From the NCBI RefSeq assembly GCF_007988945.1, contig NZ_BJVC01000002.1:124001-188000 (forward strand): DNA of 64,000 nucleotides, read 5' to 3'. The notes under the pieces are model-generated. The model was not told the DNA's origin and made no database searches. It worked only from the letters and a program-made list of their open reading frames with translations. Source of the stretch: Swaminathania salitolerans. Its GTDB lineage: Bacteria; Pseudomonadota; Alphaproteobacteria; Acetobacterales; Acetobacteraceae. Within the stretch, counting starts at the first letter, position 1; each line of letters opens with the position of its first letter. Position numbers and translations under genes: made by a program. Below are positions 1,319 through 43,570 of this stretch, piece after piece.

Positions 1319-1476
1319 GGTGAACCTCCTTCAAAGGCAGATCCGGCGCCTCGTCTCCGAATGGGCAGACGCAGCGCCTGAGTGTCATGTCATGACCCCT
1401 GGGGCATCGTGACATGAAATTCATTTAGGATCGTTCCCGGTCCAGACAAGGACCGGAGAAGGAGGTCTGGCGGTTT

Positions 1477-1710
1477 TTACTTCTTGGCCGCGCGCGAACC
1501 GATTCCGGCGAAGCGCTTGTTGAACTTCGCGACCTGGCCGCCCGTATCGAGCATGCGCTGCACGCCGGTCCATGCGGGGTGCGACTTCGGATCGACATCG
1601 AGGCGGAGCGTATCGCCAGCCTTGCCGTAGCAGGAGCGCGTGGTGAACTCGGTGCCATCGGTCATGATGATCGTGATTTCGTGGTATTCGGGATGAATGC
1701 CGGATTTCAT
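1477..1710 (-). CDS. rpmE: 50S ribosomal protein L31
   Basis: A 77-residue protein beginning [19 protein letters not shown], the standard L31 N-terminus. The ATG at 1710 was chosen because the frame upstream of it has no L31-like sequence. L31 bridges the ribosomal subunits. Only one cysteine (in RSCYGKAG) is present, and the paired CxxC zinc ligands of the C+ form are absent, so this is the zinc-free C- type. It therefore should not depend on zinc status. The C-terminal Lys/Arg-rich tail is normal for alphaproteobacteria. Confidence 0.95.
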
Positions 1711-2033
1711 GAGAACTGTCCTTGCTGGGATGCTCCGATGCCGACCGGAGCGGATGGCGCGGTCATATCGGAAAGATCGCGGAAGGGAAACGATAAAAAC
1801 GCAGAAACTTTTGACCGGGTCGGGTTTTCTCAACCCGAGCGTAACCTTCGCGCCATGATACTGGCGCCGATACCCGCTTCGCCCGGTTGCCGGACACTGC
1901 CTCGTCGCATTGCGCGGGCCGGGCCATCAGAACCGTCGCCGCATGTGAAGGCTCGCATGCGCCTGCCCGATCCGGGGCGCGACACACGCAACCGCACACC
2001 GAACAAGACCAGAAAACAAGGAAATTACCGACG
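1711..2033. other. Divergent intergenic region between rpmE and mscL
   Basis: This 323-bp stretch separates two divergently read genes, so both promoters should lie here. I see no additional gene with a credible start or family signature. The mscL ribosome binding site (AAGGAA) sits at its right end. No clear repeat or operator was recognised. Confidence 0.5.
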
Positions 2034-26800: not shown

Positions 26801-26802
26801 TA

Positions 26803-28876: not shown

Positions 28877-29709
28877 GGCTCAGGACTCATTATGGCGTCC
28901 AGTAGATGACTGTTGCGGCGAGGCAGATTGCCGAGAAGAAGGTGTGGGCGCAGCGGTCGTAGCGCGTGGCAATGCGGCGCCAGTCCTTGAGGCGGCCGAA
29001 CATGTTCTCGACCTTGTGCCGCCGGCGATATCGGGACTTGTCGTACGGGATCGGCACTTTCCGGCTCTTCGTGGACGGGATGCATGGCTCGATGCCTCTT
29101 TCGGTCAGATTGCGCCGGAAACAATTGCTGTCGTAACCGCGATCGCCGACCAGGTGGCGAGCGGAGGGCAAGCGTGGCAGCAGCAGGGCTGCGCCCTTGT
29201 GGTCACTCATCTGACCTTCGGTGAGCAGCATCGCCACTGGACGGCCATGCCCGACGCAGACGGCGTGCAGTTTCGAGTTCAGGCCGCCTCTTGTGCGTCC
29301 GATCCGACGCGCAGCACCCCCTTTTTGAGCAGACTTGCGGCAGTGCGATGCGCCTTCAGATGTGTGCTGTCGATCATCAACTCCTCCGGAACGCCAGCAT
29401 TACCCGTCAGGGCGGAAAAGATCCGGGCAAATACGCCAAGACGGCTCCAACGGATGAAGCGATTATACAGCGTCTTATGCGGACCGTAGCCCGACGGCGC
29501 GTCCTTCCATTGCAAGCCATGCCGGATCACGTAGACGATGCCGCTCAGCACGCGGCGATCATCTACGCGTTTCAGGCCGCGCGTTTTCGGAAAATATGGC
29601 CGTAACGCGCGCATCTTGCTCACAGGCAGCATCGGCAGATCAGACATCGGGTTCTCCTTCCGTTGACCGTCGAATCACATCATCCCAGTCTCGTAAAGGG
29701 TCCTGAGCC
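28877..29709 (-). mobile_element. IS427-group insertion sequence, copy 2 (inverted)
   Basis: Same 833-bp length, ends (GGCTCAGG) and flanking TA (28875-28876, 29710-29711) as copy 1, in the opposite orientation. The two copies differ by only a few substitutions (for example MSKM versus VSKM near the OrfA start). Confidence 0.88.
28890..29647 (-). CDS. IS427-group transposase (copy 2), two frames joined by -1 frameshift
   Basis: Near-identical to the copy 1 transposase: OrfA is 29279-29647, and the second frame has a separately readable part at 28890-29237. Both the slippery AAAAAGGGGG and the catalytic-region motif LVGDRGYDSNCFR are kept, so this copy could also be active. Confidence 0.85.
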
Positions 29710-29975
29710 TAGGCCGACCATTCCAAAAAAAACCGATAGCTAAAACTGTCTGGTTCCGCTGAGGAGATCGCGCGCTTAAAATTCCTCCGGGCCTGGCTGC
29801 ATGATAAGCTCGGTCTTCGATATTTTGCGCCCACTGGCCGTACTACCGGTAATAGAGGCAACCGGGAGTCAAAAACCGAAAGAAGCTTGTCAATTTTCAA
29901 ATATCGGCTTCCTTGTCGCGCTATGCAGCATCGACCGATCCGATCGTCAGACTACGACAGACGTTGGCGGCTATC
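29710..29975. other. Degenerate sequence right of IS copy 2
   Basis: No intact gene. A short plus-strand reading (FLRAWLHDKLGLRYFAPTGR) looks like decayed coding sequence I cannot assign. Positions about 29927-29975 resemble 45317-45365 (both contain ATCGACCGATCCGATCG), a dispersed repeat. Confidence 0.4.
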
Positions 29976-30813
29976 CTACGCGCGTTGCAGTGTCCAGTCC
30001 TCGAGTGTAAGCAACGTCGGATACTCACGTCGCAGAGCTGAAATATCAGCCTTGAAGCCGTCTCGGGCGATCCACTCGAACATCAGGCGAAAGTCTTCGG
30101 GTAATCGCGTTCGCATAACAGAGGGGATTGTAAAGCCGCGGCTTGGGCGTATTCCGGCATTCGGCAGAATTGACGCTGCGGTGCGGGCTGTCACCTGCAA
30201 GCTCAATGGCCCGACCAAGGTACTGATCAGGTTTCTCGAACGCCTCCGCAGCGAACCAGGCAACATCCTGCACCGAGACAAGCTGCATAGCCTGATCCGG
30301 CCTCAGATAGGTCTTCATCATGGACAGCATAGTGATCCGAAAGATCAGGCTTGAAAAGTTTTCCATAAAGGCCGCTGGACGTAGAACCGTAGCCGGCAAG
30401 TTCAGTGACGCAATGTGCTGCTCAATCGCCCATTTGCTCTCGAAGTGGGGAACGCCGCTCCGTCGCTCAACCCCGCCTGCGGAGCACTGCACGAAGTGCC
30501 ACACGCCACTCTTCTTGGCGAGGCTGGCGAGCCTCTTTCCCTGTCGCTCCTCACCGGCTGGACCGATCTTCATGGGCGACTGGACAGATAAAACGCCTTC
30601 TGCCCCGTCAAGCGCCAATCGCAGGGAATGTTCGTCGTCCAGATCACCATGAACGAGCTCAACCCCATGCTTTGCCAGAGCGACTGCTTTTGGCGTCTGC
30701 GGGCTCCGGACGAGCGCGCGAATGTGCCAATGCCCTCGACGTTGCATCTCGCGGATCGTGGCGCCGCCTTGTTGTCCGGTCGCGCCCGTAATCAGAATGA
30801 CTGGTTTTGACAT
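29976..30813 (-). pseudogene. NmrA-like NAD(P)-binding protein, frameshifted
   Basis: The first frame, from ATG 30813, gives SKPVILITGATGQQGGATIR (Rossmann GxxGxxG) and an NmrA/atypical SDR body up to YLGRAIELAGD. Near 30190 the homology moves to the next frame, which supplies the expected C-terminus (FRLMFEWIARDGFKADISAL, then TLLTLEDW) and stops at 29976. One base change explains this: a real pseudogene or a sequencing error. NmrA-like proteins sense NADP redox state or reduce quinones. Divergent from a LysR gene. Confidence 0.75.
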
Positions 30814-30911
30814 CTCGGCCCCTTCAATACAGAGGTACGATAAGCCGTTCCCGTTGGACAGGGCAGGTGCGTCATCGTAGACGTCTTGTTCCATATCTGG
30901 AACGCAAGCCC

Positions 30912-31790
30912 ATGAACTCAGATGATCTCGGCAGCTTTCTGCGCATCGCGGAGACCATGAGCCTCAGCGCAGCCTCGCGCGTCACGGGAACGCCTAAATC
31001 ATCGCTCAGCCGGGCATTATCCCGTCTGGAGAGGGAAATCGGGGCGAAGCTGTTCGAACGCGGCGCGCATGCCCTCAGACTGACCGAGGCCGGGCGCATA
31101 CTCCTGATCCACGCAAGACGCGTCATGGACGATTTGAATGAGGCTGCCGCGGCCCTCGATGGGGTAACGGGGCAACCTCGAGGGGTTCTAAAAATCAGCG
31201 CAGCAACGACATTCGCAATCGGGCTGGTGGCGCCGATGCTGCCGCATTTTCTGCGAGAGTATCCTGATCTGCGCGTCCATCTTGAGGCTGAGAACCGGGT
31301 TGTCGATCTGGCGAGGGAGGATGTCGACATGGCAATCCGGATAGGGGCAATGCCAGACTCCGACCTGATCGCCAGCAAGTTGGGCAGGATCGAATTATGG
31401 CCCTGCTCGAGCCCAGCCTACCTCTTGGAAAGAGGTAGGCCCCAAACGCCACACGACTTGGCCGATCACGAGTTGCTTGGATGGACCGATCAACCGTCGA
31501 TCTGGCGTTTCAAAGATAGCGCGGGGTGCGAGCATCGCATACCCGTCGCGGTTCGATCCGTCATCCCGGAGCCCGCCGTCCTGCAGGTGGTCCTTGAGAG
31601 CGGGGGAGGGGTAGGACGTTTGCCTGCCTTCTTGGCAAACCCCTCAACCGAGAAGGGTAGGCTTGTGAGACTACTCCCCGACTATGAAGCGGAGACAGTG
31701 GAGGTACATGCGGTCTACGCAGCGCATCGGAGCCTCTCCTCCAAGGTCCGGGTATTTATTGATGCTTTGCGCGCACATATGACAGGATGA
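30912..31790 (+). CDS. LysR family transcriptional regulator (divergent from NmrA-like gene)
   Basis: A 292-residue LysR protein starting MNSDDLGSFLRIAETMSLSA. The HTH region reads SAASRVTGTPKSSLSRALSR, followed by a LysR substrate-binding domain of the LTTR group in which ALDGVTGQPRGVLKISAATT marks the hinge. It faces the NmrA-like gene across a 98-bp gap, a typical regulator-target layout, so it probably controls that gene and itself. The ATG at 30912 fits the family length. Effector unknown. Confidence 0.85.
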   Translation: MNSDDLGSFLRIAETMSLSAASRVTGTPKSSLSRALSRLEREIGAKLFERGAHALRLTEAGRILLIHARRVMDDLNEAAAALDGVTGQPRGVLKISAATTFAIGLVAPMLPHFLREYPDLRVHLEAENRVVDLAREDVDMAIRIGAMPDSDLIASKLGRIELWPCSSPAYLLERGRPQTPHDLADHELLGWTDQPSIWRFKDSAGCEHRIPVAVRSVIPEPAVLQVVLESGGGVGRLPAFLANPSTEKGRLVRLLPDYEAETVEVHAVYAAHRSLSSKVRVFIDALRAHMTG

Positions 31791-31960
31791 TCGCCCATAT
31801 CCTCCTGTGGGACACAGCTTATCGGCAGCGAAGGCGAACGCTATCTGACATCATCTTTGCCTACCGTCGCCCCGGCGCTGTTTGATATTTCGCTAGGATC
31901 AAAACCCGATTATGCCCCGGAAGGGTCGACCTGTGGCTTTTGACCACAGGCGTTCGGCCC

Positions 31961-32314
31961 TCAGTTCGGCTTTGCCATGTCGCCTTTCGAGTCATTGCTC
32001 ATCGCGTCATGTTCCATCGGGTCGTGCTTCATCGCACTGCCCATCTTGTTCTTCTTTTCCATACCCTCTGACTTCATCATGCTGCCATGCTTGCCCATGG
32101 ACCGCTTCGACATCCCGTGGGGCACCATTTCGTCCTTCGTCATGGCATGCTTCTTCATGCTGTCTGAAGACATGTCACCGTGTGACATGCTGTCATGTGC
32201 CATAGCGCCCTGCGACATCGTCCCTTGTGACATGGTGTCCTGAGCGAAGGCAGGGGCTCCCAGCAGCATTGTCGAAGAAAAGGCACAGGCGAGTGCGAGT
32301 GTACGAAAAGACAT
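31961..32314 (-). CDS. Secreted methionine-rich peptide (pentapeptide MxxDx-type repeats)
   Basis: A 117-residue protein with a signal peptide (SFRTLALACAFSSTMLLGAP; cleavage after AFA). The mature part of about 93 residues contains 18 Met (about 19%), spaced every 4-5 residues with His, Asp, Ser and Lys (for example TMSQGTMSQGAMAHDSMS). It belongs to the penta-MxKDx type and parallels MrpX of Azospira, a sacrificial scavenger of hypochlorite whose Met sulfoxides are repaired by YedY/MsrP. The ATG at 32314 follows AGGAATG. A SigF-type promoter lies 66-90 bp upstream (32380-32405), tying it to the neighbouring Msr genes. Confidence 0.82.
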   Translation of the reverse strand: MSFRTLALACAFSSTMLLGAPAFAQDTMSQGTMSQGAMAHDSMSHGDMSSDSMKKHAMTKDEMVPHGMSKRSMGKHGSMMKSEGMEKKNKMGSAMKHDPMEHDAMSNDSKGDMAKPN

Positions 32315-32379
32315 GATTACATTCCTGGATCGGTTCAAAGGGTCGGAAAATGGACGCGCCAGCTTCCGATATCTTTTCT

Positions 32380-32405
32380 TTCGCCTCAGCCTTGCCGCAG
32401 GTTAC
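32380..32405 (-). promoter_or_regulatory. SigF-type promoter of the Met-rich peptide gene
   Basis: On the minus strand GTAACC (32405-32400), exactly 16 bp, then CGAA (32383-32380). This equals the SigF motif known from Caulobacter. Confidence 0.78.
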
Positions 32406-32421
32406 ATGCCTGTGTGCTTTT

Positions 32422-33171
32422 TTATGAACCGCCGAACCAGTCATACCCCTGGTCTTCCCAATATCCGCCCGGGAAATGATTCGTGACCTCGATAGAGGCG
32501 AGATATTTCGGGTTTTTATAGCCGAGTTTTGTAGGAATGCGGATTTTCATCGGGGCGCCATAGGCGGGTGGGAGAGGGTTCCCGCCGAAATCCAGCGCCA
32601 TGATTGTCTGCGGATGAAGTGCCGTCGCCATATCGATACTCGTACTGTAATCATCAAAACAGCGGAAATTCACATATTTTGCCCGTAGATCGGCCCCGAC
32701 ATGCTGCAGGAATACAGAGAGCGGAACCCCCGACCAATCTCCGATAGCGCTCCACCCCTCCACGCAGATATGTCGCGTGATCTGCCTTTTCTGCGGCAGG
32801 GTACGAAACCGGGCGACCGACCAGGGGCTCTTGTCTGAAACAAGCCCGCTCACCTCCAGCCGCCAGGATGAAGTCTCGACGAGCCTTACGTCGCTCTCGT
32901 CATAATAGGCATTGAATGGAAAGGGATGTGTGATGCGCGACGGGTCAAATTCCCTTGCGAGGCGCTGACGGCTGAAAAGAAGCGCCTGCATCCGGTCGGT
33001 GAAACGTGACATCAGGCTAAGGGCCTGTTCCACGGACGCATTATCGTCCAGTGCGCAGCCTGACAGCAGGGAAAGCCCACCAATAGAAAGACTGTTCCGC
33101 AGGAAGAGCCTGCGTTCGAGCTTGCGCAATTCGGGCGCGACACCGGCGCGGTCGATTTTCGGCGGGCTCAT
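32422..33171 (-). CDS. msrP: MsrP/YedY-like periplasmic molybdopterin methionine sulfoxide reductase
   Basis: A 249-residue protein of the sulfite oxidase fold. The N-terminus has an RRLFLR Tat-type motif followed by a hydrophobic stretch ending LLSGC. The Cys ligand to molybdenum is in ITRHICVEGWSAIGDW. It would reduce Met-sulfoxide in periplasmic proteins using electrons from the quinone pool via its membrane partner. The preceding cytochrome gene overlaps it by 4 bp (ATGA), as in msrPQ-type operons, although the partner here is cytochrome b561-like. Transcribed from the SigF-type promoter at 33835-33860. Substrate inferred from context. Confidence 0.82.
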   Translation of the reverse strand: MSPPKIDRAGVAPELRKLERRLFLRNSLSIGGLSLLSGCALDDNASVEQALSLMSRFTDRMQALLFSRQRLAREFDPSRITHPFPFNAYYDESDVRLVETSSWRLEVSGLVSDKSPWSVARFRTLPQKRQITRHICVEGWSAIGDWSGVPLSVFLQHVGADLRAKYVNFRCFDDYSTSIDMATALHPQTIMALDFGGNPLPPAYGAPMKIRIPTKLGYKNPKYLASIEVTNHFPGGYWEDQGYDWFGGS

Positions 33172-33791
33172 GAGGCGCTCTCCTTGTCGCTATCTGGCAT
33201 ACGTCGCCCGAACACCATGCCCCACAAGGTGGCGGGCACCATCAGGGCAAGCGCGACATGGAGCAAAAGAAAGCCCACAATCAGGCTCATCATGGCAAAA
33301 TGGATGCACCGGGCAATGTCGTAGCCTCCGAACAACCAGGTCAGCCATCCAAGTTGCACGGGTTTCCAGATCGAAAGGCCCGTCGTGACCGTCAGCACAG
33401 CCACCACAAGCACGCCCGTGTAGAGCGCACGTTGCACAGCGTTGTAGTGCCCGGCCTTGTGGGAGAGCTTCAGGCGCAGGGCCTGCCCAATATCCCTCAC
33501 CACAGATCGCGGTCCTGCGGGGCGCAGGTCGTTGCGAAAATGCCCGCTTGCGGCGCCATACACAACGTAAACCAGCCCCGCCCCCATCAGCACCCACATG
33601 GCAGCAAAATGCCAGGCAATGCCGCCGCCAAGCCAGCCTCCAAGAGTGACGGCAGTGGGGAATTCAAAGGGCAGGATAGGGGAGGCGTTATAGATCTGCC
33701 AGCCACTACCGATCATGACGAGCATGGCAAGCGCGCCTGCCCAATGGGTGAGGCGTATGATCGGTGCGGGCGCGCGTCGCGATCGTGACAT
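33168..33791 (-). CDS. Cytochrome b561-type membrane partner of MsrP
   Basis: A 207-residue membrane protein with four main hydrophobic segments: WAGALAMLVMIGSGWQIY, the region with FAAMWVLMGAGLVYVVYG, TGVLVVAVLTVTTGLSIW and MSLIVGFLLLHVALALMV. Candidate haem-ligating His residues are in IRLTHWAG, IAWHFAAM, ARCIHFAMM and LLLHVAL. This is the cytochrome b561/Ni-hydrogenase b-type fold, which passes quinol electrons to periplasmic enzymes. The ATG at 33791 was chosen because 60 upstream residues look non-coding and overlap the promoter. It overlaps msrP by 4 bp. Confidence 0.83.
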   Translation of the reverse strand: MSRSRRAPAPIIRLTHWAGALAMLVMIGSGWQIYNASPILPFEFPTAVTLGGWLGGGIAWHFAAMWVLMGAGLVYVVYGAASGHFRNDLRPAGPRSVVRDIGQALRLKLSHKAGHYNAVQRALYTGVLVVAVLTVTTGLSIWKPVQLGWLTWLFGGYDIARCIHFAMMSLIVGFLLLHVALALMVPATLWGMVFGRRMPDSDKESAS

Positions 33792-33834
33792 GGCAGTTCG
33801 TTCCCTGAGTCTTATGGAGGCTGGCAGAGTTTTC

Positions 33835-33860
33835 TTCGTGTGGACGCCCTCAAAGGTTAC
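33835..33860 (-). promoter_or_regulatory. SigF-type promoter of the cytochrome b561-msrP operon
   Basis: Minus-strand GTAACC (33860-33855), 16-bp spacer, CGAA (33838-33835), 44 bp before the start codon. Confidence 0.8.
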
Positions 33861-33893
33861 GGCACGGGCTAAAAAAAAACGGTGTGACTGCCC

Positions 33894-33919
33894 GTAACCT
33901 CTGCGCGGTGCAGCACGAA
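33894..33919 (+). promoter_or_regulatory. SigF-type promoter of msrB-msrA-sigF-nrsF
   Basis: GTAACC (33894-33899), 16-bp spacer, CGAA (33916-33919), 34 bp before msrB. It is back to back with the cytochrome b561-msrP promoter, so one 85-bp region drives both operons. Confidence 0.8.
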
Positions 33920-33953
33920 GGATGGTGTGAAATTCATCAAAAGGGCGAAGTTC

Positions 33954-34415
33954 ATGACATCGCGTCGACAATTCTGCCTTGCTTCAGTCTGTCTGGCTCT
34001 GTCGGGCCGCGCCTGGGGCGCAGAACCTTATCCCGTGACGCATAGTGCTGCTGAATGGCGGCGCCTGCTCACACCGGAGCAATTCGAGATTCTGCGTGAG
34101 GCTGGCACAGAGGCACCCTGGTCCAGCCCGCTCCTGAACGAACACCGACAGGGGCGGTTTGCCTGCGCAGGCTGCGCAACGCCGGCATTTGACTCACACA
34201 GCAAGTTCGAAAGCGGGACGGGCTGGCCAAGTTTCACGGCAGCGCTGCCCCATGCTGTTCAGGAGCGTGGGGATGACAGTCTTGGCATGGAGCGCACGGA
34301 GGTACGGTGCGCGACATGCGGTGGTCATCTTGGCCATGTCTTTGATGACGGTCCCCAACCGACCGGCTTGCGCTACTGCATGAACGGCGCAGCCCTTACC
34401 TTCAGGCCAGTCTGA
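33954..34415 (+). CDS. msrB: Exported methionine-R-sulfoxide reductase MsrB
   Basis: A 153-residue protein with a Tat-like signal peptide (TSRRQFCLASVCLALSGRAW), so it should act in the periplasm. The MsrB domain has both zinc pairs (CAGC and CATC), the segment FESGTGWPSFTAALP, and the catalytic Cys in GLRYCMNGAAL. It reduces the R epimer of Met sulfoxide. ATG 33954 has an AAGGG ribosome binding site; an in-frame GTG at 33927 is less likely. First gene of a four-gene operon; msrA starts 8 bp after its stop. Confidence 0.92.
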   Translation: MTSRRQFCLASVCLALSGRAWGAEPYPVTHSAAEWRRLLTPEQFEILREAGTEAPWSSPLLNEHRQGRFACAGCATPAFDSHSKFESGTGWPSFTAALPHAVQERGDDSLGMERTEVRCATCGGHLGHVFDDGPQPTGLRYCMNGAALTFRPV

Positions 34416-34423
34416 AAGTTCGC

Positions 34424-35215
34424 ATGATGATCAGGAAAAACGTGCTTGGCGTCGCGCTCGCCACATTCAGCCTTTATGGAATTCTGCACGAGGTCACTTC
34501 AAGGGCGTCTGCCTATCCGACCTTGCCTGAGCCCGTTATCGTGGCAAAGACCGGTAACGACAAACCCATCGGGCAGATGACGGCACCCCCCGATGATTCC
34601 CGTCCGGGGATGACCCCATCCAGCGTCGTTTTTGCGGGAGGGTGTTTCTGGGGGGTGCAGAGCATATTCCAGCACGTGCGAGGCGTCACAGCCACCCGAG
34701 CTGGATATGACGGCGGTGCGCGTGACACGGCCCAGTATGAACGCGTCAGCGAAGGCGATACCGGTCATGCGGAATCGGTTGAGGTTGAGTATGATCCTAC
34801 CCTCGTCAGCTTTGGCACGCTGATGCGGATATTCTTCACCGTGGCACTGGACCCGACGCAGATCGACCAGCAATTCCCCGATACGGGGCCACAATACCGT
34901 TCCGTCATTTTTACGCGGACAGCGCAACAGGCGCGCGAGGCAGAGGCCTATATCGCGCAACTCGATGCCGCCCACATCTTTGCCCAGCCCATCGCAACGC
35001 ATGTTCAGCCTGACAAGGCGTTCACCGGGGCGGAAAGAGAGCATCAGAATTTTGCGGCGCGTTATCCGCATAATATCTACATCGAGACCTATGATGCCCC
35101 GCGGCTGGACGCACTGCGTGCCAGCTTCCCGGCAAGCTGGCGGACAGAGCCAGTCCTAGCACTTTCTACGGCGCCTGGGTCTTTACGTATGTCAAATGAT
35201 AGCGGTAGGAAATGA
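34424..35215 (+). CDS. msrA: Exported methionine-S-sulfoxide reductase MsrA
   Basis: A 263-residue protein with an N-terminal membrane/signal segment (VLGVALATFSLYGILHEVTS), an approximately 45-residue linker, and an MsrA domain. The catalytic motif is GGCFWGVQSIF, followed by the family segment GDTGHAESVEVEYDP and FAGGCFWG-type surroundings. It reduces the S epimer of Met sulfoxide. No cytoplasmic version is visible nearby, and the leader suggests periplasmic action together with MsrB and MsrP. The residues after the MsrA core (about 25) look variable. The sigF gene follows after 30 bp. Confidence 0.92.
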   Translation: MMIRKNVLGVALATFSLYGILHEVTSRASAYPTLPEPVIVAKTGNDKPIGQMTAPPDDSRPGMTPSSVVFAGGCFWGVQSIFQHVRGVTATRAGYDGGARDTAQYERVSEGDTGHAESVEVEYDPTLVSFGTLMRIFFTVALDPTQIDQQFPDTGPQYRSVIFTRTAQQAREAEAYIAQLDAAHIFAQPIATHVQPDKAFTGAEREHQNFAARYPHNIYIETYDAPRLDALRASFPASWRTEPVLALSTAPGSLRMSNDSGRK

Positions 35216-35245
35216 TCTCCGGTCACGCATGAAGGCAGCAGATTT

Positions 35246-35776
35246 TTGACAGAAGCGGATTGGAGCCGTTGGATGGAGGCCGCGCAGGCAGGAGATGCAC
35301 AGGCTTATCGCCTGGTGCTGGGCGAGGCACAGGCATGGTTGCGCCGTTTTTTCCTCAAACGCCTGCCGCCCTCAATGGTCGATGACGCCGTGCAGGACAC
35401 CCTTATGGCGGTGCACGAGAAGCGTCACACCTTCGATCCTTCCCAGAAATTCGGCCCGTGGATTGCGGCCATTGCGCGTTACAAATGGATTGATCGCCTC
35501 CGGGCCGCCAGGCGTACACAGACGACCCTGCTTGATGAGACGGTGGCTGTGGGCGATCACGAGGAACAGGTGACCACGGCTCATGCACTGGAAAAGCTTC
35601 TGGCGCAGTTGAAGCCGGGGCCGGCAGAAGCGATCAGGTTGGTGAAGTTGCAAGGTCTGAGCATAGAGGAGGCAGCACGTCGAACAGGGCAATCCGCGAC
35701 GTTGGTGAAGGTCAATATCCATCGTGGGTTGAATCGCATGAGCACTCTGGTGATGGGAGGCAACGATGGTGAATGA
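35246..35776 (+). CDS. sigF: SigF-type ECF sigma factor
   Basis: A 176-residue ECF sigma. Region 2 (EAQAWLRRFFLKRLPPSMVD, then DAVQDTLMAVHEK) and region 4 (GLSIEEAARRTGQSATLVKV) are clear. It partners with the DUF1109/NrsF anti-sigma gene that overlaps its 3' end, the arrangement seen for Caulobacter and Azospira SigF. Because it lies in the operon driven by a GTAACC-N16-CGAA promoter, positive autoregulation is expected. The start is TTG 35246 or, with a GGAG at good distance, ATG 35273; the second would still keep all of region 2. Confidence 0.88.
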   Translation: MTEADWSRWMEAAQAGDAQAYRLVLGEAQAWLRRFFLKRLPPSMVDDAVQDTLMAVHEKRHTFDPSQKFGPWIAAIARYKWIDRLRAARRTQTTLLDETVAVGDHEEQVTTAHALEKLLAQLKPGPAEAIRLVKLQGLSIEEAARRTGQSATLVKVNIHRGLNRMSTLVMGGNDGE

Positions 35777-36407
35777 TCCCCTGATCGAGCGGTTTGTAAC
35801 CGATCTTCGCCCCGTCCGGAGACGCTCACTCTGGCGCGATGCCTTGACCCTCACGGTTCTCGCCGGGGTCGAGATCGGTGCAGTGCTCGGGTTTGGCCTG
35901 ATGCGCCCTGACATGCCCCATGCCATGCACATGATGAGCTTCTGGTGGAAGGCAATCGGACTGCTGCTGATCGTCGGGCTGGGCGGCGCTTCGGCGCTGG
36001 TCTCGCTCGACCCGACACGTTCGCCCCGGCAGGGGCTGCGTCGGCTGGGCGTGACGGCTGTTGTTCTTTTTGCCCTTGGCTGGCTTGTGGATGCGCTTCA
36101 GGCTGGGCCAGAGGCGTTATGGCTCAGGCTGGATCCGGCGCATGGCATGGTCTGTGCACGCGAGATCGTGGAGCTTGCTCTTCCGGCTGTCCTCGCACTG
36201 GGTGTTATCGTGCGCCGCGGCGCACCGGTTGATGTGCGCGGAACAGCGTGGGTCACTGGCATTGCCGGCGCGGCTTTTGGTGCGCTCGTCTTTGCTCTGG
36301 CCTGCCCCTTTGATGACCCGCTCTACCTTGTCGTCTGGTATTCATTGGCCTGTGCGCTGGTGGCCTGCGGCACGCGTCTGGTGTTGCCTTGGTTGATACG
36401 CTGGTAG
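35766..36407 (+). CDS. nrsF: NrsF-type (DUF1109) membrane anti-sigma factor
   Basis: A 213-residue inner-membrane protein with six predicted membrane segments, including DALTLTVLAGVEIGAVLGFG, AIGLLLIVGLGGASALVSL, LGVTAVVLFALGWLVDAL and YLVVWYSLACALVACGTRLV. A short cytoplasmic N-terminus (PLIERFVTDLRPVRRRSLWR) is typical of the DUF1109 family that holds SigF at the membrane. Two periplasm-side cysteine-bearing positions (MVCAREIVEL and ALACPFDD) are candidates for redox sensing, as reported for related NrsF proteins. Overlaps sigF by 11 bp. Confidence 0.88.
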   Translation: MVNDPLIERFVTDLRPVRRRSLWRDALTLTVLAGVEIGAVLGFGLMRPDMPHAMHMMSFWWKAIGLLLIVGLGGASALVSLDPTRSPRQGLRRLGVTAVVLFALGWLVDALQAGPEALWLRLDPAHGMVCAREIVELALPAVLALGVIVRRGAPVDVRGTAWVTGIAGAAFGALVFALACPFDDPLYLVVWYSLACALVACGTRLVLPWLIRW

Positions 36408-36455
36408 GTCCGGGCGATGCATTGTGCATCGCCCGATGCGATTGGGTATAATCGA

Positions 36456-37340
36456 TCAGATCGCGCTGTCTTTCGTCAACTTGTCCTGCGTTCTGAGCTC
36501 GAAATCCGAGCTGTCATGGCGTTCGCGAAGCTGGGAAGACAGCGGGCCTGAGAGCCTGTTCACCATCCGGCCCCGCTGGACAGCAGGGCGTTCGAGCAAC
36601 CGGGCTGACCACGCCTGCACATGGGAATACTCCTGAACGCTCAGAAACTGTGCAGCATCATTATAGAGCCAGCCTTCTACAAGGCCGCCATACCATGGAA
36701 AGATTGCCATATCGGCAATTGTATAGGTGTCGCCCGCTATATAGTCATGCCGGGCAAGCTGCCGGTCGAGAACGTCCAGCTGGCGTTTGGTCTCCATGGC
36801 AAACCGGTTGATTGCATATTCGATCTTCTCAGGGGCGTAGGCATAGAAATGGCCAAAGCCACCGCCGAGATAGGGTGCGCTGCCGACCTGCCAGAAAAGC
36901 CAGTTCAGACAGGCCGTACGCGATGGAACATCCCGAGGCAGAAAAGCCGCGAATTTCTCTGCGAGATAAAGCAGGATCGATCCTGATTCGAAGACGGGCA
37001 GGGGGGTGCCCCCGCTTTGGTCGATCAGCGCCGGGATCTTGGAATTCGGGTTGATGGCTGTAAAGCCCGATCCGAACTGATCGCCATCCCCTATATTGAT
37101 CAGCCAGGCATCATATTCCGCCCCCTCATGTCCCAGGGCCAGGAGTTCCTCCAGCATGATCGTCACCTTTACCCCATTGGGCGTACCCAGTGAGTATAGC
37201 TGGAGCGGGTGACGCCCTACGGGGAGGTTCTTTTCATGCGTCGGCCCGGCGACAGGGCGATTGGTGCTGGCGAATTTGCCGCCATTATGTTTGTCCCATG
37301 TCCAGACACTGGGCGGTGTATAGTTTTCTGAAGCGGTCAT
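36456..37340 (-). CDS. yghU: YghU-like glutathione S-transferase / disulfide-bond oxidoreductase
   Basis: A 294-residue nu-class GST. The N-terminal extension and PVGRHPLQLYSLGTPNGVKV, then TIMLEELLALG, match E. coli YghU. The thioredoxin-fold domain includes NPNSKIPALID, and a helical C-terminal domain ends with the conserved VNRLSGPLSSQLRERH. Such enzymes bind two glutathiones and reduce organic peroxides and disulfides. ATG 37340 overlaps the stop of the upstream GST gene by 4 bp, so the two GSTs are translationally coupled. A longer frame upstream was rejected because it runs through that gene. Confidence 0.88.
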   Translation of the reverse strand: MTASENYTPPSVWTWDKHNGGKFASTNRPVAGPTHEKNLPVGRHPLQLYSLGTPNGVKVTIMLEELLALGHEGAEYDAWLINIGDGDQFGSGFTAINPNSKIPALIDQSGGTPLPVFESGSILLYLAEKFAAFLPRDVPSRTACLNWLFWQVGSAPYLGGGFGHFYAYAPEKIEYAINRFAMETKRQLDVLDRQLARHDYIAGDTYTIADMAIFPWYGGLVEGWLYNDAAQFLSVQEYSHVQAWSARLLERPAVQRGRMVNRLSGPLSSQLRERHDSSDFELRTQDKLTKDSAI

Positions 37341-38053
37341 GAGCGCTGCTCCCGATTGTGGATAGGGAAATTGGATGGGAAGAGGGCACGTTGTGCCTGA
37401 TCGTCCATATCTGTCTTGAATGCGTGCCTCTTCATGAGCGCCTGCACGCGCGACACGGCCGAGCGGGCATTGATGTCGTGCATGAAGCGAGCAAGTGCAG
37501 GCCAGCGCTCGAGCGGATAATCTTCCTTGAGCACACGGGGCGCGCGCTCCAGCCAGCCCCAGGCAGACATATCGGCAATTGTGAAAGTATCGCCCACGAT
37601 GTAACGGCGGTCCGTGAGGTGCTGGTCGAGAACTGTGTAATGTCGTTCGACCTCGCGCCTGTACCGATTGACGGCGTAGTCCAGCCCGGCGGGCGCTGCA
37701 TGCTGAAAATGCACGGCCTGACCGGAAAAAGGCCCAAGCCCGGATGCGATAAACATCAACCATGACAGCAATTCAGGCCGGTCCGCGGGGGTCCCGAGAT
37801 ATTGCCCGCTCTTTTCAGCAAGATAGAGCAGTATTGCATTGGAATCGAACACGCGTGTTGCCGGGCCCGCAGGACCTTCGGTGTCGATAATGGCAGGCAC
37901 CTTGCCATTGGGGTTGATCGCGAGAAACGCCGGGTCATACTGATCACCTTTGCGGGTATCGACCGGTATGGCCTCATAGGGCAAACCGGTTTCCTCGAGC
38001 ATGAGGGCGATTTTCGCCGGGTTGGGCGTGGGATGGAAATAAAAACGGATCAT
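37337..38053 (-). CDS. Glutathione S-transferase, YfcG/Ure2-like
   Basis: A 238-residue GST. The N-terminal thioredoxin-like domain (RFYFHPTPNPAKIALMLEET; NPNGKVPAIIDTEG; FDSNAILLYLAEK) provides the glutathione site, and an all-helical C-terminal domain follows (FTIADMSAWGWLERAP). The short Asn-containing N-terminal loop in place of Tyr/Ser/Cys is typical of the nu/YfcG group, which favours disulfide reductase and peroxidase activity over classical conjugation. Upstream partner of the yghU-like gene. Confidence 0.85.
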   Translation of the reverse strand: MIRFYFHPTPNPAKIALMLEETGLPYEAIPVDTRKGDQYDPAFLAINPNGKVPAIIDTEGPAGPATRVFDSNAILLYLAEKSGQYLGTPADRPELLSWLMFIASGLGPFSGQAVHFQHAAPAGLDYAVNRYRREVERHYTVLDQHLTDRRYIVGDTFTIADMSAWGWLERAPRVLKEDYPLERWPALARFMHDINARSAVSRVQALMKRHAFKTDMDDQAQRALFPSNFPIHNREQRS

Positions 38054-38159
38054 GATAGCTCACCCTTGCGAAACCATGTCAGTCTGATTGGCAGTATGGG
38101 CGGGTCCTGCTGACGCTCCACCGTACTGGTGATCGCAATCCTGTGGTTATCACGGAGCC

Positions 38160-38909
38160 CTAGACCGCGGCCGCACCACCGTCGACAATGAGGTCAATGC
38201 CTGCAACATGACTGCTTTCATCAGAAGCCAGAAAGAGCGCGGCCGCAGCAAGTTCCTCTGGCTGCCCCAATCGCTTCATGGGCACGGCTGCAGCCCATTG
38301 ACGCTTGACGGCTTCGGCACCTTCCGGCGTATCGGCCTGGCTGTCCATGATCGGTGTGTCGAACGGTCCGGGGCTGAGGGTATTGATCCGTATGCCGCGT
38401 TCGACCAGTTCGGCCGTCCAGGTTCTGGACAGGCTGCGTATTGCAGCCTTGCTTGCGCTGTATGTGCCATAGCCAGGCACACCCTTATTGGCAGCGATGG
38501 ATGAGACAAGGATGACTGAGCTGCCAGACCGCAACAGGCCAAGTGCCTTGCTGATCGTGAAATACAGGCCTTTCACGTTGATATCAAACGTCCGATCGTA
38601 ATTGGCTTGTGTTGCCTGTTCGAGTGTTTGAGGCAGAACGATGCCGGCATTGGCGACCAGAATATCGATAGCCCCACGTTCACGCCGTATCGTTTCCACC
38701 ATGCGTTCGATATCGCCGGGAAGACTGACATCTGCCTGTATAGAGGCGGCCTGACTGCCCAATGTCGGTACAGCCCGCTCAAGCTCGGCCTGTCGCCGAC
38801 CGGTGATATAGACAAATGCGCCTTCAGCGATGAAACGCGTTGCGATGGCAAGCCCGAGCCCGCTGCTTCCTCCGGTCACAAGGGCCGTTTTTCGATGAAG
38901 TTTCGTCAT
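38160..38909 (-). CDS. Short-chain dehydrogenase/reductase (SDR)
   Basis: A 249-residue classical SDR. It shows the cofactor loop TGGSSGLGLAIA, the structural NAG (LVANAGIVLPQ), the catalytic Ser (ILVSSIAANKG), the YSASK motif (YGTYSASKAAIRSL), and the C-terminal SDESSHVAGIDLIVDGG. Arg residues after the second strand (ITGRRQAELE) suggest NADPH. Ends a block of minus-strand redox genes. Substrate unknown; SDRs of this clade often act on small carbonyl compounds. Confidence 0.88.
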   Translation of the reverse strand: MTKLHRKTALVTGGSSGLGLAIATRFIAEGAFVYITGRRQAELERAVPTLGSQAASIQADVSLPGDIERMVETIRRERGAIDILVANAGIVLPQTLEQATQANYDRTFDINVKGLYFTISKALGLLRSGSSVILVSSIAANKGVPGYGTYSASKAAIRSLSRTWTAELVERGIRINTLSPGPFDTPIMDSQADTPEGAEAVKRQWAAAVPMKRLGQPEELAAAALFLASDESSHVAGIDLIVDGGAAAV

Positions 38910-39059
38910 AACTGTTCCTTTTCGAAGGCAGATTGCCGTGAAGGAATCACGAAGCGCGAGAGGGGCGCAGAGAGGTTCGTGAACGCCGCAGGCTGGATGT
39001 CATCGGGAGCGCGAGACGAGGCCCGTTCTACCGGCAGGGTACAGTACTTGGGTGAGGGC

Positions 39060-39476
39060 TCAGAGCAGACCGCGATGGCCTTCATACTCTTCGCTTTTGT
39101 CGAGTCCACGCTCAGCAATGATCTTCGCAGCGACAGGCATGACACCGGAAATGGCGGGAAAGCCGACATAAGGGAGCATCTGTATCAGAGCCTCCTCTAT
39201 TTCCTTCAGCTTCATACCGTGATCGAGCGCAAAACCCATATGGAGGCCGAATTCATGAGGCTGGCGCAGCGCAACCATGACGGTCATGGTGATGAGACTT
39301 CGACGCGCCTGATCGAGCCCTTCACGTGTCCAGATGTCCTCGAAAACATGATCAACTGCATACCCGGCTATGGCTGCGCCGAAAGTGCCTGACTGTGACG
39401 CCGCGATGAGCTTGGCGGATTGTTCGTCACCCATCAAATGGCGAGTGAAGCTATTGCCCATGTCATTGGAGCGCAT
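39060..39476 (-). CDS. Carboxymuconolactone decarboxylase family protein
   Basis: A 138-residue helical protein (LDQARRSLITMTVMVALRQP; MGFALDHGMKLKEIEEALIQ) like PcaC-type members. The CxxC of AhpD is absent, so it is probably not a peroxidase reductase. ATG 39476 follows a GGAG. Role unknown. Confidence 0.75.
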   Translation of the reverse strand: MRSNDMGNSFTRHLMGDEQSAKLIAASQSGTFGAAIAGYAVDHVFEDIWTREGLDQARRSLITMTVMVALRQPHEFGLHMGFALDHGMKLKEIEEALIQMLPYVGFPAISGVMPVAAKIIAERGLDKSEEYEGHRGLL

Positions 39477-39543
39477 ATCTCTCTCCGTATCCTCAGTGAA
39501 AAACTCCGCTCCTGCGCGAGCCGGGGCGGTATGGATGGAGTGA

Positions 39544-40218
39544 TCAGTCGGCCGACTGGGTCGCGTGGCGCAGGGCAGGAAGCATGTCGGCAGGTTCCGG
39601 GCGACGCGTATAATCCGGGTTGACCTCGGCATAGAGAATGACGCCGTCCTGACCGATGACGAAACGTCCGGGCATGGGGAGCGTCCAGCTGTCGTCACCA
39701 TTGAAACCGGGCAGATCGTTTTTGAGATTCCGGTAAAGCTCGATCAGATAGTCCGGCATGGTAAAACGCAGGCCGAATTGTGCTGCAACGTCGTTATGCG
39801 TGTCGGACAGGATCGGGAAATCCAGATCGTTCTGGCGGACGGATTTCCGGCTGTTCGCAGCCGTCTGCGGCGAGATCGCGACCAGCTCCGCACCGAGATC
39901 GCGGAATGAGGGAAGTGCCGCCTCGAGAGCCTGCAATTCCATGTTGCAGTAAGGGCACCAGACGCCACGATAGAAGCTGACGACCAGAGGTCCCCGGGCG
40001 AGAAGATCGGCAGAGGATACGGGATTGCCGTCGGGATCGTTCAGCGTGAAGGCCGGTGCCTTGTCTCCCGCCTTGAGGGCTTTCTCTGCGGCGCCCGAGG
40101 CAACCAGCTCGGCAGTGGCGCGGTGCATGGTCTCGATGACCGCGTGCGGGACGTTGTAAGGGGGCTTTCCGGCTTCGAAATCGGCCTTGAAAGCGTCGAG
40201 TTTTGCCTGGAGTGTCAT
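39544..40218 (-). CDS. Peroxiredoxin-like AhpC/TSA family protein
   Basis: A 224-residue thioredoxin-fold protein. An N-terminal helical part (LQAKLDAFKADFEAGKP) is followed by the AhpC/TSA domain with FYRGVWCPYCNMELQALEAA. The CPYC pair replaces the single peroxidatic Cys of true peroxiredoxins, so it may be a thiol oxidoreductase or an atypical peroxidase. The ATG at 40218 fits the family N-terminus. It lies downstream of the Old Yellow Enzyme gene in the same direction, separated by a 21-bp palindrome. Confidence 0.85.
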   Translation of the reverse strand: MTLQAKLDAFKADFEAGKPPYNVPHAVIETMHRATAELVASGAAEKALKAGDKAPAFTLNDPDGNPVSSADLLARGPLVVSFYRGVWCPYCNMELQALEAALPSFRDLGAELVAISPQTAANSRKSVRQNDLDFPILSDTHNDVAAQFGLRFTMPDYLIELYRNLKNDLPGFNGDDSWTLPMPGRFVIGQDGVILYAEVNPDYTRRPEPADMLPALRHATQSAD

Positions 40219-40300
40219 GGTTTCGTTTCCCTGGTTGTGGTGTCGGATCCGACGATATGCGGTCGCCGGACGGGAGGGATGACGGCGTGGCCGACTAACG

Positions 40301-40321
40301 CTCATTCCGTGACGGAATGAG
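40301..40321. promoter_or_regulatory. 21-bp perfect palindrome between OYE and peroxiredoxin-like genes
   Basis: CTCATTCCGT-G-ACGGAATGAG, with an extra half-site CTCATTCCG near 40333 over the end of the OYE gene. A one-base centre suits a dimeric repressor site better than a terminator hairpin. Confidence 0.5.
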
Positions 40322-40332
40322 CGCTCCGTCTC

Positions 40333-41439
40333 TCATTCCGCCGTTGCTGTCGCTGTTTCGGAGAAAGGATAGTCGGTGTAGCCATGGGCATCGCCGCCAT
40401 AGAAGGTCGAACGGTCATAAGGGGTCAGGGGAAGATCCAGACGCAGCCGCTCGGGAAGATCGGGATTGCTGATGAAGTGCCGACCGAAGGCGACCGCATC
40501 GGCATCGCCGGAATCGAGCAGGGCTCCTGCACTGTTCCTGTCGAACCCGCCTGCCGCGATCAGCGTGCCCCGGAACCTCTTGCGCAAGTCGCGCGCGGCG
40601 ACAGGCGCGCTTTCGGCAATGAGTTCCGTGCCCTTGATGCGGGGCTCGACCACATGCAGATAGGCGATTCCGAGCGCATCCAGCCGCTCTGCCACATAGC
40701 CGAAGGTTTCCTCGGGATTGCTGTCCGACATCGAGCCGTAAGTGCCGCTCGGGCTCAGACGAACACCTACGCGATCTGCCCCCCAGACGGATATGGCGGC
40801 TTGCGTCACCTCAAGAAGGAAGCGGGCGCGGTTCTCGACAGGGCCGCCATACTCATCGGTGCGGTGGTTGGTGCCATCCTGCAGGAACTGGTCCGGCAGA
40901 TAGCCATTGGCGCCGTGAATCTCCACGCCGTCGAACCCTGCCAGTCTGGCCCTTGCGGCACCTTTTCTGAACTGCTCGATCACGGCAGGAATTTCCTCCA
41001 GCGTGAGGGCGCGCGGCATGGAGAACGGGGCGGGGCCGCTGGGCGTGTAGGCGTCTCCTTCCGCCCGCAGGGCAGACGGAGCAACCGGAGCCGCGCCGCC
41101 GGGTTGCAGATCGTGATGCGACTGCCGCCCCACATGCCAGAGCTGCATGACGATCCTGCCACCGCGCGCATGAACGGCCTCGGTGACCGCGCGCCAGCTT
41201 TCGATCTGGGAGTCGTCATAAATGCCCGGTGCGCCCGCATAGCCATACCCTTCGAGTGCGACGGGTGTCGCCTCGGAGACGATGAGTCCGCCGGGCGAGC
41301 TGCGCTGGCTGTAATACTGCGCCATCAGCGCATTGGCCTTGCCGGATGCGTCCGATCGCATACGCGTCAGCGGTGCCATGACGATTCTGTGGCCGAGCGA
41401 CAATGCTCCGGCCCGGAGCGGGGTGAAGAGTGCGTTCAT
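40333..41439 (-). CDS. Old Yellow Enzyme family alkene reductase (NemA-like)
   Basis: A 368-residue FMN barrel enzyme. It starts MNALFTPLRAGALSLGHRIV, then VMAPLTRMRSD. The active-site pair His-Asn is in GVEIHGANGYLPDQFLQDGT, and the flavin-binding C-terminal part is DAVAFGRHFISNPDLPERLR. It reduces activated C=C bonds (N-ethylmaleimide, quinone-like electrophiles) with NAD(P)H. The ATG at 41439 was chosen over a longer frame that overlaps the GST gene. It follows the GST gene by 29 bp and probably shares its promoter. Confidence 0.92.
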   Translation of the reverse strand: MNALFTPLRAGALSLGHRIVMAPLTRMRSDASGKANALMAQYYSQRSSPGGLIVSEATPVALEGYGYAGAPGIYDDSQIESWRAVTEAVHARGGRIVMQLWHVGRQSHHDLQPGGAAPVAPSALRAEGDAYTPSGPAPFSMPRALTLEEIPAVIEQFRKGAARARLAGFDGVEIHGANGYLPDQFLQDGTNHRTDEYGGPVENRARFLLEVTQAAISVWGADRVGVRLSPSGTYGSMSDSNPEETFGYVAERLDALGIAYLHVVEPRIKGTELIAESAPVAARDLRKRFRGTLIAAGGFDRNSAGALLDSGDADAVAFGRHFISNPDLPERLRLDLPLTPYDRSTFYGGDAHGYTDYPFSETATATAE

Positions 41440-41468
41440 GGGAATGTCTTTCCTGAAAAGAGACGGGT

Positions 41469-42104
41469 TCAGTTCCTGGCGGTGAGCGCCTCGACGCGGT
41501 CGATACCGCGCTGCACGCCGGGTCGGGCGGCGATCTGCTCGTACCAGCGGGCGACATGAGGGGTGCGGTCGAGCGCGATGCCGGGAAAGCTGCGTCGCCA
41601 CAGCCAGCCGAAATGCGCGATATCGGCGATGGAGAAGGCATCGCCTGCCACGAAGTCGCGATGCGCCAGCACGCCGTCGAGTACACCCAGCACGCGTCTG
41701 GCTTCGTTGTCGAAGCGTTCGATGGCGAGCGGCAGGGTTTCGCTGGCAAAACGCCGGAAGAAGCCGGCTTGTCCGAAAGCGGGGCTCAGCGCGGAGGCAT
41801 GAAAGAAAAGCTGTTCGAATACGCGCGCCCGTTCGGCCCCGGTTGCAGGGAGAAGGCGGCCGGTTTTTCCAGCCAGGTACACGAGTATGGCTGCAGACTC
41901 TGTGAGGACGAGCTTCTCATCCCTCGCGTCGTGATCAACCAGTACGGGAACCTTCTGGTTAGGATTAAGCGTCGTGAAGGACGTGGTACCCTGTTCGCCT
42001 TGCCGGATATTGATGCCGTGTAGCGCATAGGCGAGATCGAGCTCTTCCAGCGCGATGGTGACCTTGACGCTGTTGGGCGTCGCGAAAGCGTAGACCTCAA
42101 TCAT
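41469..42104 (-). CDS. Glutathione S-transferase
   Basis: A 211-residue GST. The thioredoxin-like half has VYAFATPNSVKVTIALEELD, LNPNQKVPVLVDHD and LTESAAILVYLAGKTG, and the helical half carries FSIADIAHFGWLWRRSF. It is first in a probable minus-strand operon with the OYE gene, which suggests joint handling of electrophiles. A divergent LysR regulator starts 272 bp away. Substrate unknown. Confidence 0.86.
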   Translation of the reverse strand: MIEVYAFATPNSVKVTIALEELDLAYALHGINIRQGEQGTTSFTTLNPNQKVPVLVDHDARDEKLVLTESAAILVYLAGKTGRLLPATGAERARVFEQLFFHASALSPAFGQAGFFRRFASETLPLAIERFDNEARRVLGVLDGVLAHRDFVAGDAFSIADIAHFGWLWRRSFPGIALDRTPHVARWYEQIAARPGVQRGIDRVEALTARN

Positions 42105-42376
42105 GAGCGGTTCCTCCATCAGGTTTTGCAAGGAGAGTGGAGAGCGCCGGGAGAAGGGCGGCGACCATAGCTTGTGGCAGGTCACCCGTGAGCTGATAGG
42201 CCGAGATAAAATGCGACACCGGTCGTGTTGATACGGCGTTGGTGAAATGAACGATCATCCTGAAGCCTGCTCCATCCTTCCCCGACGCTGACCGGGTTGC
42301 AGGCTTGGTTTGCCTCTGTTTCACTGGGCATGGCAGATGGCTCGATGCGATAAGCATCATTCCCCGGAGGAATAGG

Positions 42377-43252
42377 ATGGACCGATATCAGGCGATGACG
42401 ACGTTCGTGCGTGTGGTCGAGACGGGTTCATTCTCAGCAGCGGCACGGCAGCTTCATGTTGGTCAGCCCGCTGTGTCGAAAATCGTGGCACAGCTGGAAA
42501 GCCGGTTGCAGGTCAGCCTGCTGATACGCTCGACGCACGGTCTGACGCCGACAGAGGCGGGGCAGGCGTTTTACGAGCGCGCGCGCAACGCGCTGCTGGA
42601 AGCCGACGAGGCCGAGCTGGCGGCGCGCGGCGCGGGAAGCGGTCTGTCCGGACGGCTGCGCGTATCGGCCGCCACGACATTTGCGCGGCTGCATATCATA
42701 CCCCGGCTTCCGGCTTTTCTCGATGCGCATCCGCAGCTCGATGTCGATATTCTGCTTGATGACCGGATGATCGATCTCGTGGCCGAGGGGGTTGATATCT
42801 CGTTGCGTATGGGGGCTTTGGCCGATTCCTCAGCGGTCGCGCGCAAGCTGGCGACGGGAAAACGTTCGGTGCTCGCCACACCGGCCTATCTGGCGCGTGC
42901 GGGCATGCCGTTGGTTCCTGCCGATCTGGCTGATCACACCGCGATCGTTTACAGTCAGCTCCCCAATGTCTGGTCATTTCACAGGGATGGCTCGGCCGTC
43001 TCGGTGTCCGTTGCGGGGCGTCTTAGGGTCAGCGCTGCCGAGGGCCTGCGGGCAGCCATACTCGCTGATATGGGCCTGACCATCACCTCGGACTGGATGT
43101 TCGCCCCGGAACTCGAAAGCGGCGCCGTAACGCGCCTGCTTCCAGCGTGGTCTTTGCCTGATATCGACCTTTGGGCTGTCTTCCCCACGGGAAGAATGAT
43201 GACCGCAAAGGCAAGGCAATTTGCAGATTTTGTTCAGGGCTTGATGGAATGA
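42377..43252 (+). CDS. LysR family regulator divergent from the GST-OYE operon
   Basis: A 291-residue LysR protein starting MDRYQAMTTFVRVVETGSFS. The HTH is SAAARQLHVGQPAVSKIVAQ, followed by a substrate-binding domain (SGRLRVSAATTFARLHIIPR; GLRAAILADMGLTITSDWMF). This is the CrgA/AaeR-like group that often regulates neighbouring oxidoreductases. AGGAATAGG precedes the ATG at 42377. It faces the GST-OYE operon and probably regulates it. Confidence 0.87.
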   Translation: MDRYQAMTTFVRVVETGSFSAAARQLHVGQPAVSKIVAQLESRLQVSLLIRSTHGLTPTEAGQAFYERARNALLEADEAELAARGAGSGLSGRLRVSAATTFARLHIIPRLPAFLDAHPQLDVDILLDDRMIDLVAEGVDISLRMGALADSSAVARKLATGKRSVLATPAYLARAGMPLVPADLADHTAIVYSQLPNVWSFHRDGSAVSVSVAGRLRVSAAEGLRAAILADMGLTITSDWMFAPELESGAVTRLLPAWSLPDIDLWAVFPTGRMMTAKARQFADFVQGLME

Positions 43253-43570
43253 AAGCAAGATGCCGCCGTTTGGTGCGCATACTGTCTTTTGCGATATTCA
43301 GAAAGACAAGGGCTGGCGTTGCGATCGCGTTGGCTCAGCTATGCTGGGAAGTCGAGGCAGAGTTCGACATCGACATCGACATCGACAGGTCAACGATGGG
43401 TGGTGCCTGACCCGATATGTTGCTCTCTTCAATCCGCTACCGTCGGCCTTGGCCATTCCATTCGGGAATAAGCGTTATTGCCATTACCCCGCTCCCCAAG
43501 CGAGAGGAAAATACGAAATCTCCGTTTCCTGATTGTCATATTGGCAAGCAAGGATACAGGAGTTTTCATA
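43253..43570. other. Intergenic region with GACATC microsatellite
   Basis: About 318 bp with no supported gene. A short tandem run of GACATC units lies at about 43364-43387. Nothing else recognised. Confidence 0.4.

Follow-up and report, generated by a model that had tools for sequence, protein, structure and literature searches.

A conserved SigF-NrsF locus with a methionine-rich peptide and exported methionine sulfoxide reductases in Swaminathania salitolerans

The window analysed here is a 64-kb stretch of the Swaminathania salitolerans genome (GCF_007988945.1, contig NZ_BJVC01000002.1, positions 124,001–188,000, forward strand; genome size 2.92 Mb, completeness 99.99%), and its subject is a locus of seven genes built around a sigma factor of the extracytoplasmic function (ECF) class and its NrsF-type anti-sigma factor. 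Searches against Pfam and NCBIfam placed the products in TIGR02953, PF00174, PF01292, PF01641/TIGR00357, PF01625/TIGR00401, the ECF sigma factors and PF06532. On the minus strand lie the gene of a secreted methionine-rich peptide of the pentapeptide MXKDX repeat family, resembling MrpX and BcrX (31961..32314; TIGR02953, 63.5 bits, cut-off 41), that of a sulfite-oxidase-family, MsrP-like molybdoenzyme (32422..33171; PF00174, 103 bits) and that of a membrane cytochrome b of the b561 type, the presumed electron donor of the molybdoenzyme (33168..33797; PF01292, 75.7 bits). The plus strand carries the methionine sulfoxide reductase (Msr) genes msrB (33954..34415; TIGR00357, 163 bits, cut-off 113) and msrA (34424..35215; TIGR00401, 143 bits, cut-off 108), an ECF sigma gene of the SigF/EcfF/BcrS group (35246..35776; PF04542, PF08281) and, overlapping it at 35766-35776, the gene of an NrsF/OsrA-type membrane anti-sigma factor (35766..36407; PF06532, 124.6 bits). 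The gene set is real and conserved, and both its components and a nearly identical combination of them were already on record; its assignment to SigF/NrsF control and to the repair of methionine sulfoxide in the envelope, as judged from sequence, appears well founded.

Each of the three transcription units is preceded by an exact GTAACC-N16-CGAA site, as a sequence-only reading of this DNA had proposed: the peptide gene at 32380-32405 (minus strand), the cytochrome b/molybdoenzyme unit at 33835-33860 (minus strand) and the msrB-msrA-sigF-nrsF operon at 33894-33919 (plus strand). The promoters of the sigma factor's own operon and of its putative targets thus match the ECF16 consensus tGTAACc-N16-CGAA quoted in PMC3420878. 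One hundred shuffles of the window gave a mean of 0.03 exact matches and never more than one, against three in the real sequence. When the 17 Acetobacteraceae loci that share this gene order (313 kb, both strands) were searched with GTAAC-N(15-18)-CGAA, 52 matches were obtained (seven with the reversed pattern); 51 of them fall at the three promoter places of the window, each place being occupied in 17/17 loci, and one lies elsewhere (in L087), while the spacer length is identical in all 52 even though four lengths were allowed. Because 51 of the 52 matches occupy three places with a single spacer length, the three sites are read as very probable ECF16 promoters. The 17 loci include the window and count each locus once, and since several are near-identical (L085/L086; L054/L057/L058 with the window) they do not amount to 17 independent cases. 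The identity of promoter cores relative to spacers is partly circular, nine of the ten core bases being fixed by the search pattern, and the case rests instead on the place, number and spacer counts. Over the whole genome the exact motif has four matches and the reversed pattern two, a bare count that is unremarkable. The fourth match (L001:1501-1526) was rejected as a promoter, as it lies within an open reading frame (ORF; 1458..1901, minus strand) and antisense to it, and a degenerate search (GTAAC-N17-CGAA, one mismatch) gave 386 matches, not clearly more than the 358 of the reversed pattern.

Among 200 genomes of the Acetobacteraceae, over-cut-off matches to PF06532 were found in 94 and to TIGR02953 in 15 (32/200 for the latter at E up to 0.001). 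The following neighbour counts concern only the 15 over-cut-off peptides. A molybdoenzyme/cytochrome b pair adjoins every one of them, with msrB-msrA there too in 11 and not in the other four; it is therefore the pair, and not MsrA/MsrB, that forms the constant neighbour of the peptide. An NrsF gene lies 2.3-3.5 kb from 12 of the 15; of the other three, two are in genomes with no NrsF match (G150 and G195) and one is in a genome with its NrsF gene on a separate contig (G186). From the NrsF side, loci were taken from 40 of the 94 over-cut-off genomes, roughly best scores first and with several skipped, together with one more NrsF genome (G008), a sample that leans to close relatives. Ten of 46 named annotated loci (L085-L093, L113) keep the order of the window, i.e. 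MsrP-like enzyme, cytochrome b, MsrB, MsrA, SigF and NrsF. This order was seen in Gluconacetobacter diazotrophicus PA1 5, Acetobacter sacchari (two loci), Acidomonas, Tanticharoenia, Brytella, Gluconacetobacter sacchari, two further Acetobacter strains and isolate KSS12, and also on plasmid pKB14400_3 of Kozakia baliensis. In four loci (L102, L103, L104 and L107) genes of these kinds are arranged differently, the MsrB match being weak in L104, and a search for the promoter motif gave nothing in L102 and L103. The remaining named loci, within the stretches covered (some contigs are short), are without msrBA, the molybdoenzyme or both. The loci of A. sacchari and G. diazotrophicus numbered L085 and L086 have motifs and genes at equal coordinates and nearly identical promoters, the second A. 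sacchari locus (L093) is diverged, and in Brytella acorum (L087, 6690-7440) the molybdoenzyme is split across two frames.

The peptide is 117 residues long and, past a presumed signal peptide judged by eye, holds 18 Met among 93 residues, so that the methionine content of about 19% claimed in the sequence-only reading is borne out by the count (19.4%). The same 93 residues include 12 Lys, nine Asp and seven His, with zero Cys, Trp, Phe and Tyr. Its methionine content is the highest of the 358 ORFs of at least 60 residues in the window, and it is the sole TIGR02953 match in the genome. A methionine-rich ORF with a signal-like start stands behind the equivalent promoter in all 14 loci read (window included); these ORFs are divergent in sequence and have 8.4-20.5% Met past residue 24. 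Another such ORF lies behind the minus-strand promoter of L094.

The pair of ECF sigma factor and PF06532 anti-sigma factor is of the ECF16 type, in agreement with the SigF/NrsF assignment made before. Cys130 and Cys180 of the anti-sigma factor correspond to the two cysteines reported in NrsF of Caulobacter and OsrA of Bradyrhizobium and are kept in 12/12 and 10/12 aligned rows. The NCBIfam equivalog for anti-sigma-F factor NrsF (NF042994) gave 53 bits against a cut-off of 300, which leaves the assignment at the level of the Pfam family. The first loop of the protein is methionine-rich, MRPDMPHAMHMM (window 35901-35936), a candidate sensor site in which Met54 is conserved in 11 of 12 rows.

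Both Msr proteins have export-type N-termini by eye, as had been claimed: MsrB begins with a twin-arginine-like SRRQFCLASVCLAL, its start being probably the ATG at 33954 rather than the GTG at 33927, and MsrA has a hydrophobic extension. Similar starts are seen in most of the relatives compared. MsrB has the curated domain, with what we take to be its four zinc cysteines and its catalytic cysteine. In MsrB enzymes with a resolving cysteine, this residue occupies the Cys position of an SGCGW-type motif; comparison with relatives showed Thr there instead (SGTGWPSF). MsrA has the curated domain and the catalytic GCFW (in GGCFWG), and its sole cysteine is the catalytic Cys74. No cysteine at all is found past the catalytic one in any of the 12 exported MsrA rows of the alignment, and any additional cysteine in the 11 other rows lies at least 34 residues ahead of the catalytic one, in or near the signal peptide. 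One-cysteine enzymes exist in both families, and the missing residue does not exclude membership of either. Elsewhere the genome has one further MsrA and one further MsrB, without export signals by eye, this second MsrA having four cysteines. Since the exported MsrA and MsrB are without resolving cysteines, a thiol donor from outside the enzymes would be needed. The single PF02683 match of the genome is a DsbD with N-terminal, transmembrane and thioredoxin domains, and it is our guess that electrons pass from it to the exported pair; in a Burkholderia pyrrocinia cluster the DsbD-like gene dipZ lies between msrB and msrA.

The identification of the remaining two genes as a cytochrome b561/MsrP pair held in part: a b561-type cytochrome and a molybdoenzyme are indeed present, but the molybdoenzyme falls short of the curated MsrP cut-off (figures below) and its partner is not MsrQ, PF01292 being the sole Pfam family that the cytochrome matched at E up to 1. 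The solved sequence nearest to the molybdoenzyme is 1xdq, which we take to be E. coli YedY/MsrP. Cys136 (in RHICVE), the presumed molybdenum ligand, aligns to the cysteine of 1xdq and is invariant in the window and its 11 aligned relatives. Assigned by eye, Cys39 lies in a lipobox-like L-S/T-G-C that is invariant in all 12 rows and is preceded by twin arginines in 11, on which grounds the enzyme is probably a lipoprotein exported by twin-arginine translocation.

As a whole, the locus is in our judgement best explained, with rather good probability, as an ECF16 (SigF-NrsF) module answering oxidation in the envelope. A periplasmic oxidant, possibly hypochlorite-like, would alter NrsF, with the conserved Cys180 as the probable point of attack and the methionine-rich first loop as a possible second one, and the altered NrsF would free SigF to fire the three promoters. 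The secreted peptide would then be oxidised in place of other targets, acting as a renewable sink, while the quinol-fed cytochrome b and MsrP-like molybdoenzyme, the latter probably anchored as a lipoprotein, would be made alongside it. Exported MsrB and MsrA would reduce both forms of methionine sulfoxide (R and S), taking their thiol electrons from an external source for which the one DsbD is the likeliest route. The sequence itself shows the genes, the promoter motifs, the export-type N-termini, the cysteine patterns and that the set is conserved; the release of SigF, a hypochlorite-like inducer, the peptide as a renewable sink and the two electron routes are inferred from it.

Several observations weigh against this interpretation. 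The score of the molybdoenzyme against the MsrP equivalog PRK05363 is 89.7 bits where the cut-off is 207. In its fold model, of low confidence (mean pLDDT 63.8), the matches cover residues 87-249 only and are at least as good for sulfite dehydrogenases as for 1xdy/1xdq: Z is 18.2 for 2blf (23% identity) and about 15 for 1xdy/1xdq (15.4 for 1xdy, at 29% identity). The DsbD gene is on a contig other than that of the locus. Finally, the targets of Caulobacter SigF are reported to respond to dichromate and cadmium and not to H2O2 (PMC3511200).

The fate of the peptide admits another account, possible but on the unlikely side, in which the exported Msr enzymes serve to repair envelope proteins generally and the peptide is a one-way decoy that is released outside and not recycled. 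Possible homologues of the locus proteins, one MXKDX protein and one MsrB, are reported among the proteins released by Asaia bogorensis in minimal medium (PMC12502724), but the reported list also contains many proteins known as cytoplasmic, so that release may equal lysis. We consider it unlikely, too, that the molybdoenzyme and cytochrome reduce some other sulfur or oxygen compound, leaving MsrA and MsrB alone to serve the peptide. The sub-cut-off score, the b561-type partner in place of MsrQ and a fold match that suits both MsrP and sulfite dehydrogenases all fit this account, but MsrP is still the closest NCBIfam model (SorA reaches 37.6 bits), 1xdq is the closest solved sequence, and four of the 15 peptides adjoin the molybdoenzyme/cytochrome pair without msrBA. 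A role in metal stress, with the peptide binding periplasmic copper or silver and the Msr enzymes repairing metal-caused damage, seems quite unlikely. It would suit the composition of the peptide (18 Met and seven His in 93 residues) and the Caulobacter system, which responds to chromium and cadmium and has DUF2282/DUF692 genes under its control (PMC3511200), but the MsrP-like enzyme adjoining 15/15 over-cut-off peptides fits methionine oxidation better, and the related Brucella operon is induced by hypochlorous acid (HOCl; PMC8315932). That the motifs are chance matches beside genes that are merely neighbours is scarcely credible, for despite the genome-wide four matches against two, three sit inside 1.5 kb, one ahead of each unit and at equivalent places in every same-order locus.

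Within the envelope-oxidation reading, a bolder version would make the locus a transferable envelope cassette with a closed loop, in which the methionines of the NrsF loop are the oxidant sensor and are reset by MsrB-MsrA from the same operon, while the peptide acts as a competitor for oxidant that both the quinol-fed and the thiol-fed reductases regenerate. We regard this version as improbable; sensing by OsrA methionines and a DsbD-type donor have both been speculated upon in PMC3420878.

The presence of periplasmic MsrA and MsrB had been presented in the sequence-only reading as an extension of the known systems, a claim to novelty that the literature does not sustain. In perchlorate reducers, sigF/nrsF, yedYZ and mrpX are described as a periplasmic methionine-cycling mechanism and as key oxidative-stress genes of the perchlorate islands, and msrA and msrB predicted to be exported are already reported in the islands of Propionivibrio militaris MP and Dechlorobacter hydrogenophilus LT-1 (PMC4623255). 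Likewise, Bradyrhizobium EcfF-OsrA is reported to control three Msr genes, one with a predicted periplasmic product (PMC3420878). The present locus shares with both islands the sigF/nrsF, yedYZ-type and mrpX-type genes as well as exported msrA and msrB. The islands, by contrast, are tied to perchlorate respiration, while the S. salitolerans genome has no PF06778 match, i.e. no detectable chlorite dismutase (pcrA was not searched for). The seven genes here stand together as one locus with three ECF16 promoters.

Other relatives also show differences. The msrB-dipZ-msrA cluster of B. pyrrocinia likewise encodes an exported-looking one-cysteine MsrA and an MsrB without the resolving cysteine, but it has the DsbD-like DipZ gene inside and neither a sigma factor nor an MXKDX peptide among its eight listed genes. 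To our knowledge no exported MsrA or MsrB belongs to the sigF-nrsF-mrpX-yedYZ system of Azospira suillum PS. That system resembles ours in its ECF/anti-sigma pair, methionine-rich periplasmic peptide and YedY-type reductase (PMC4623255, PMC8315932). Brucella BcrS, which activates the HOCl-induced bcrXQP genes for a methionine-rich MXKDX peptide and an MsrP/MsrQ pair, shares the ECF16 pair (BcrS-AbcS), divergent promoters and the peptide, its reductase proteins being described as MsrP/MsrQ homologues; unlike here, bcrX-bcrQ-bcrP form one operon, and msrA goes unmentioned in the main text of the source (PMC8315932). Bradyrhizobium EcfF-OsrA is alike in its ECF16 sigma factor and Msr genes, but its regulon is described as seven scattered transcription units, among whose products are also a DsbD-core protein and a thioredoxin predicted to be periplasmic, and the regulon as given in PMC3420878 does not name an MXKDX peptide. 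Caulobacter SigF-NrsF has in common the sigma/anti-sigma pair, the conserved cysteine pair and a YedY-type gene in the regulon, but its other reported targets are DUF2282/DUF692/DUF2063 and DoxX-family genes and it answers metals (PMC3511200).

The locus shows that acetic acid bacteria, too, have the methionine-scavenging module of perchlorate reducers, in the form of seven closely packed genes that are probably mobile; no chlorite dismutase was detectable in the present genome. Some carriers, such as the non-pathogenic strain Gluconacetobacter diazotrophicus PA1 5, would allow each reductase to be deleted, which opens to experiment the recycling of the peptide and the supply of electrons to one-cysteine Msr enzymes in the periplasm.

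Regarding the peptide family outside these bacteria, in three of seven other genomes searched (L130, L131 and L132, labelled Bradyrhizobium, Bradyrhizobiaceae or Afipia) an MXKDX gene lies behind a GTAAC-type site, and none of the other six locus genes was found in the 13-14 kb read around it. Two of these sites resemble the published EcfF promoter, and the peptide may be part of the EcfF regulon too.

Conserved and ordinary in kind, the module is probably also mobile. A block of about 13.4 kb around it (29902..43351) recurs with 91-94% DNA identity in three genomes of genus g85, though in one of the three only from 31893, and six locus proteins (the peptide left out) are 91-99.6% identical to their g85 counterparts. 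Because DsbD (70-72%) and the cytosolic MsrA (83-85%) are far less similar between the same genomes, the block probably reflects a recent horizontal transfer between genera; the yardsticks are few, two proteins, both pointing this way. Besides the locus, the block carries genes for three glutathione S-transferase-type proteins, a short-chain dehydrogenase/reductase, a peroxiredoxin-like protein, a CMD protein, an old yellow enzyme, an NmrA-like protein and two LysR proteins. A tRNA scan of the window for an integration site found none. Directly to the left of the shared block, two inverted copies (838 nt, 99% identical) of an IS4/5-type element, at 25966-26803 and 28874-29711, flank a PF00144 beta-lactamase-fold gene (27458-28612).

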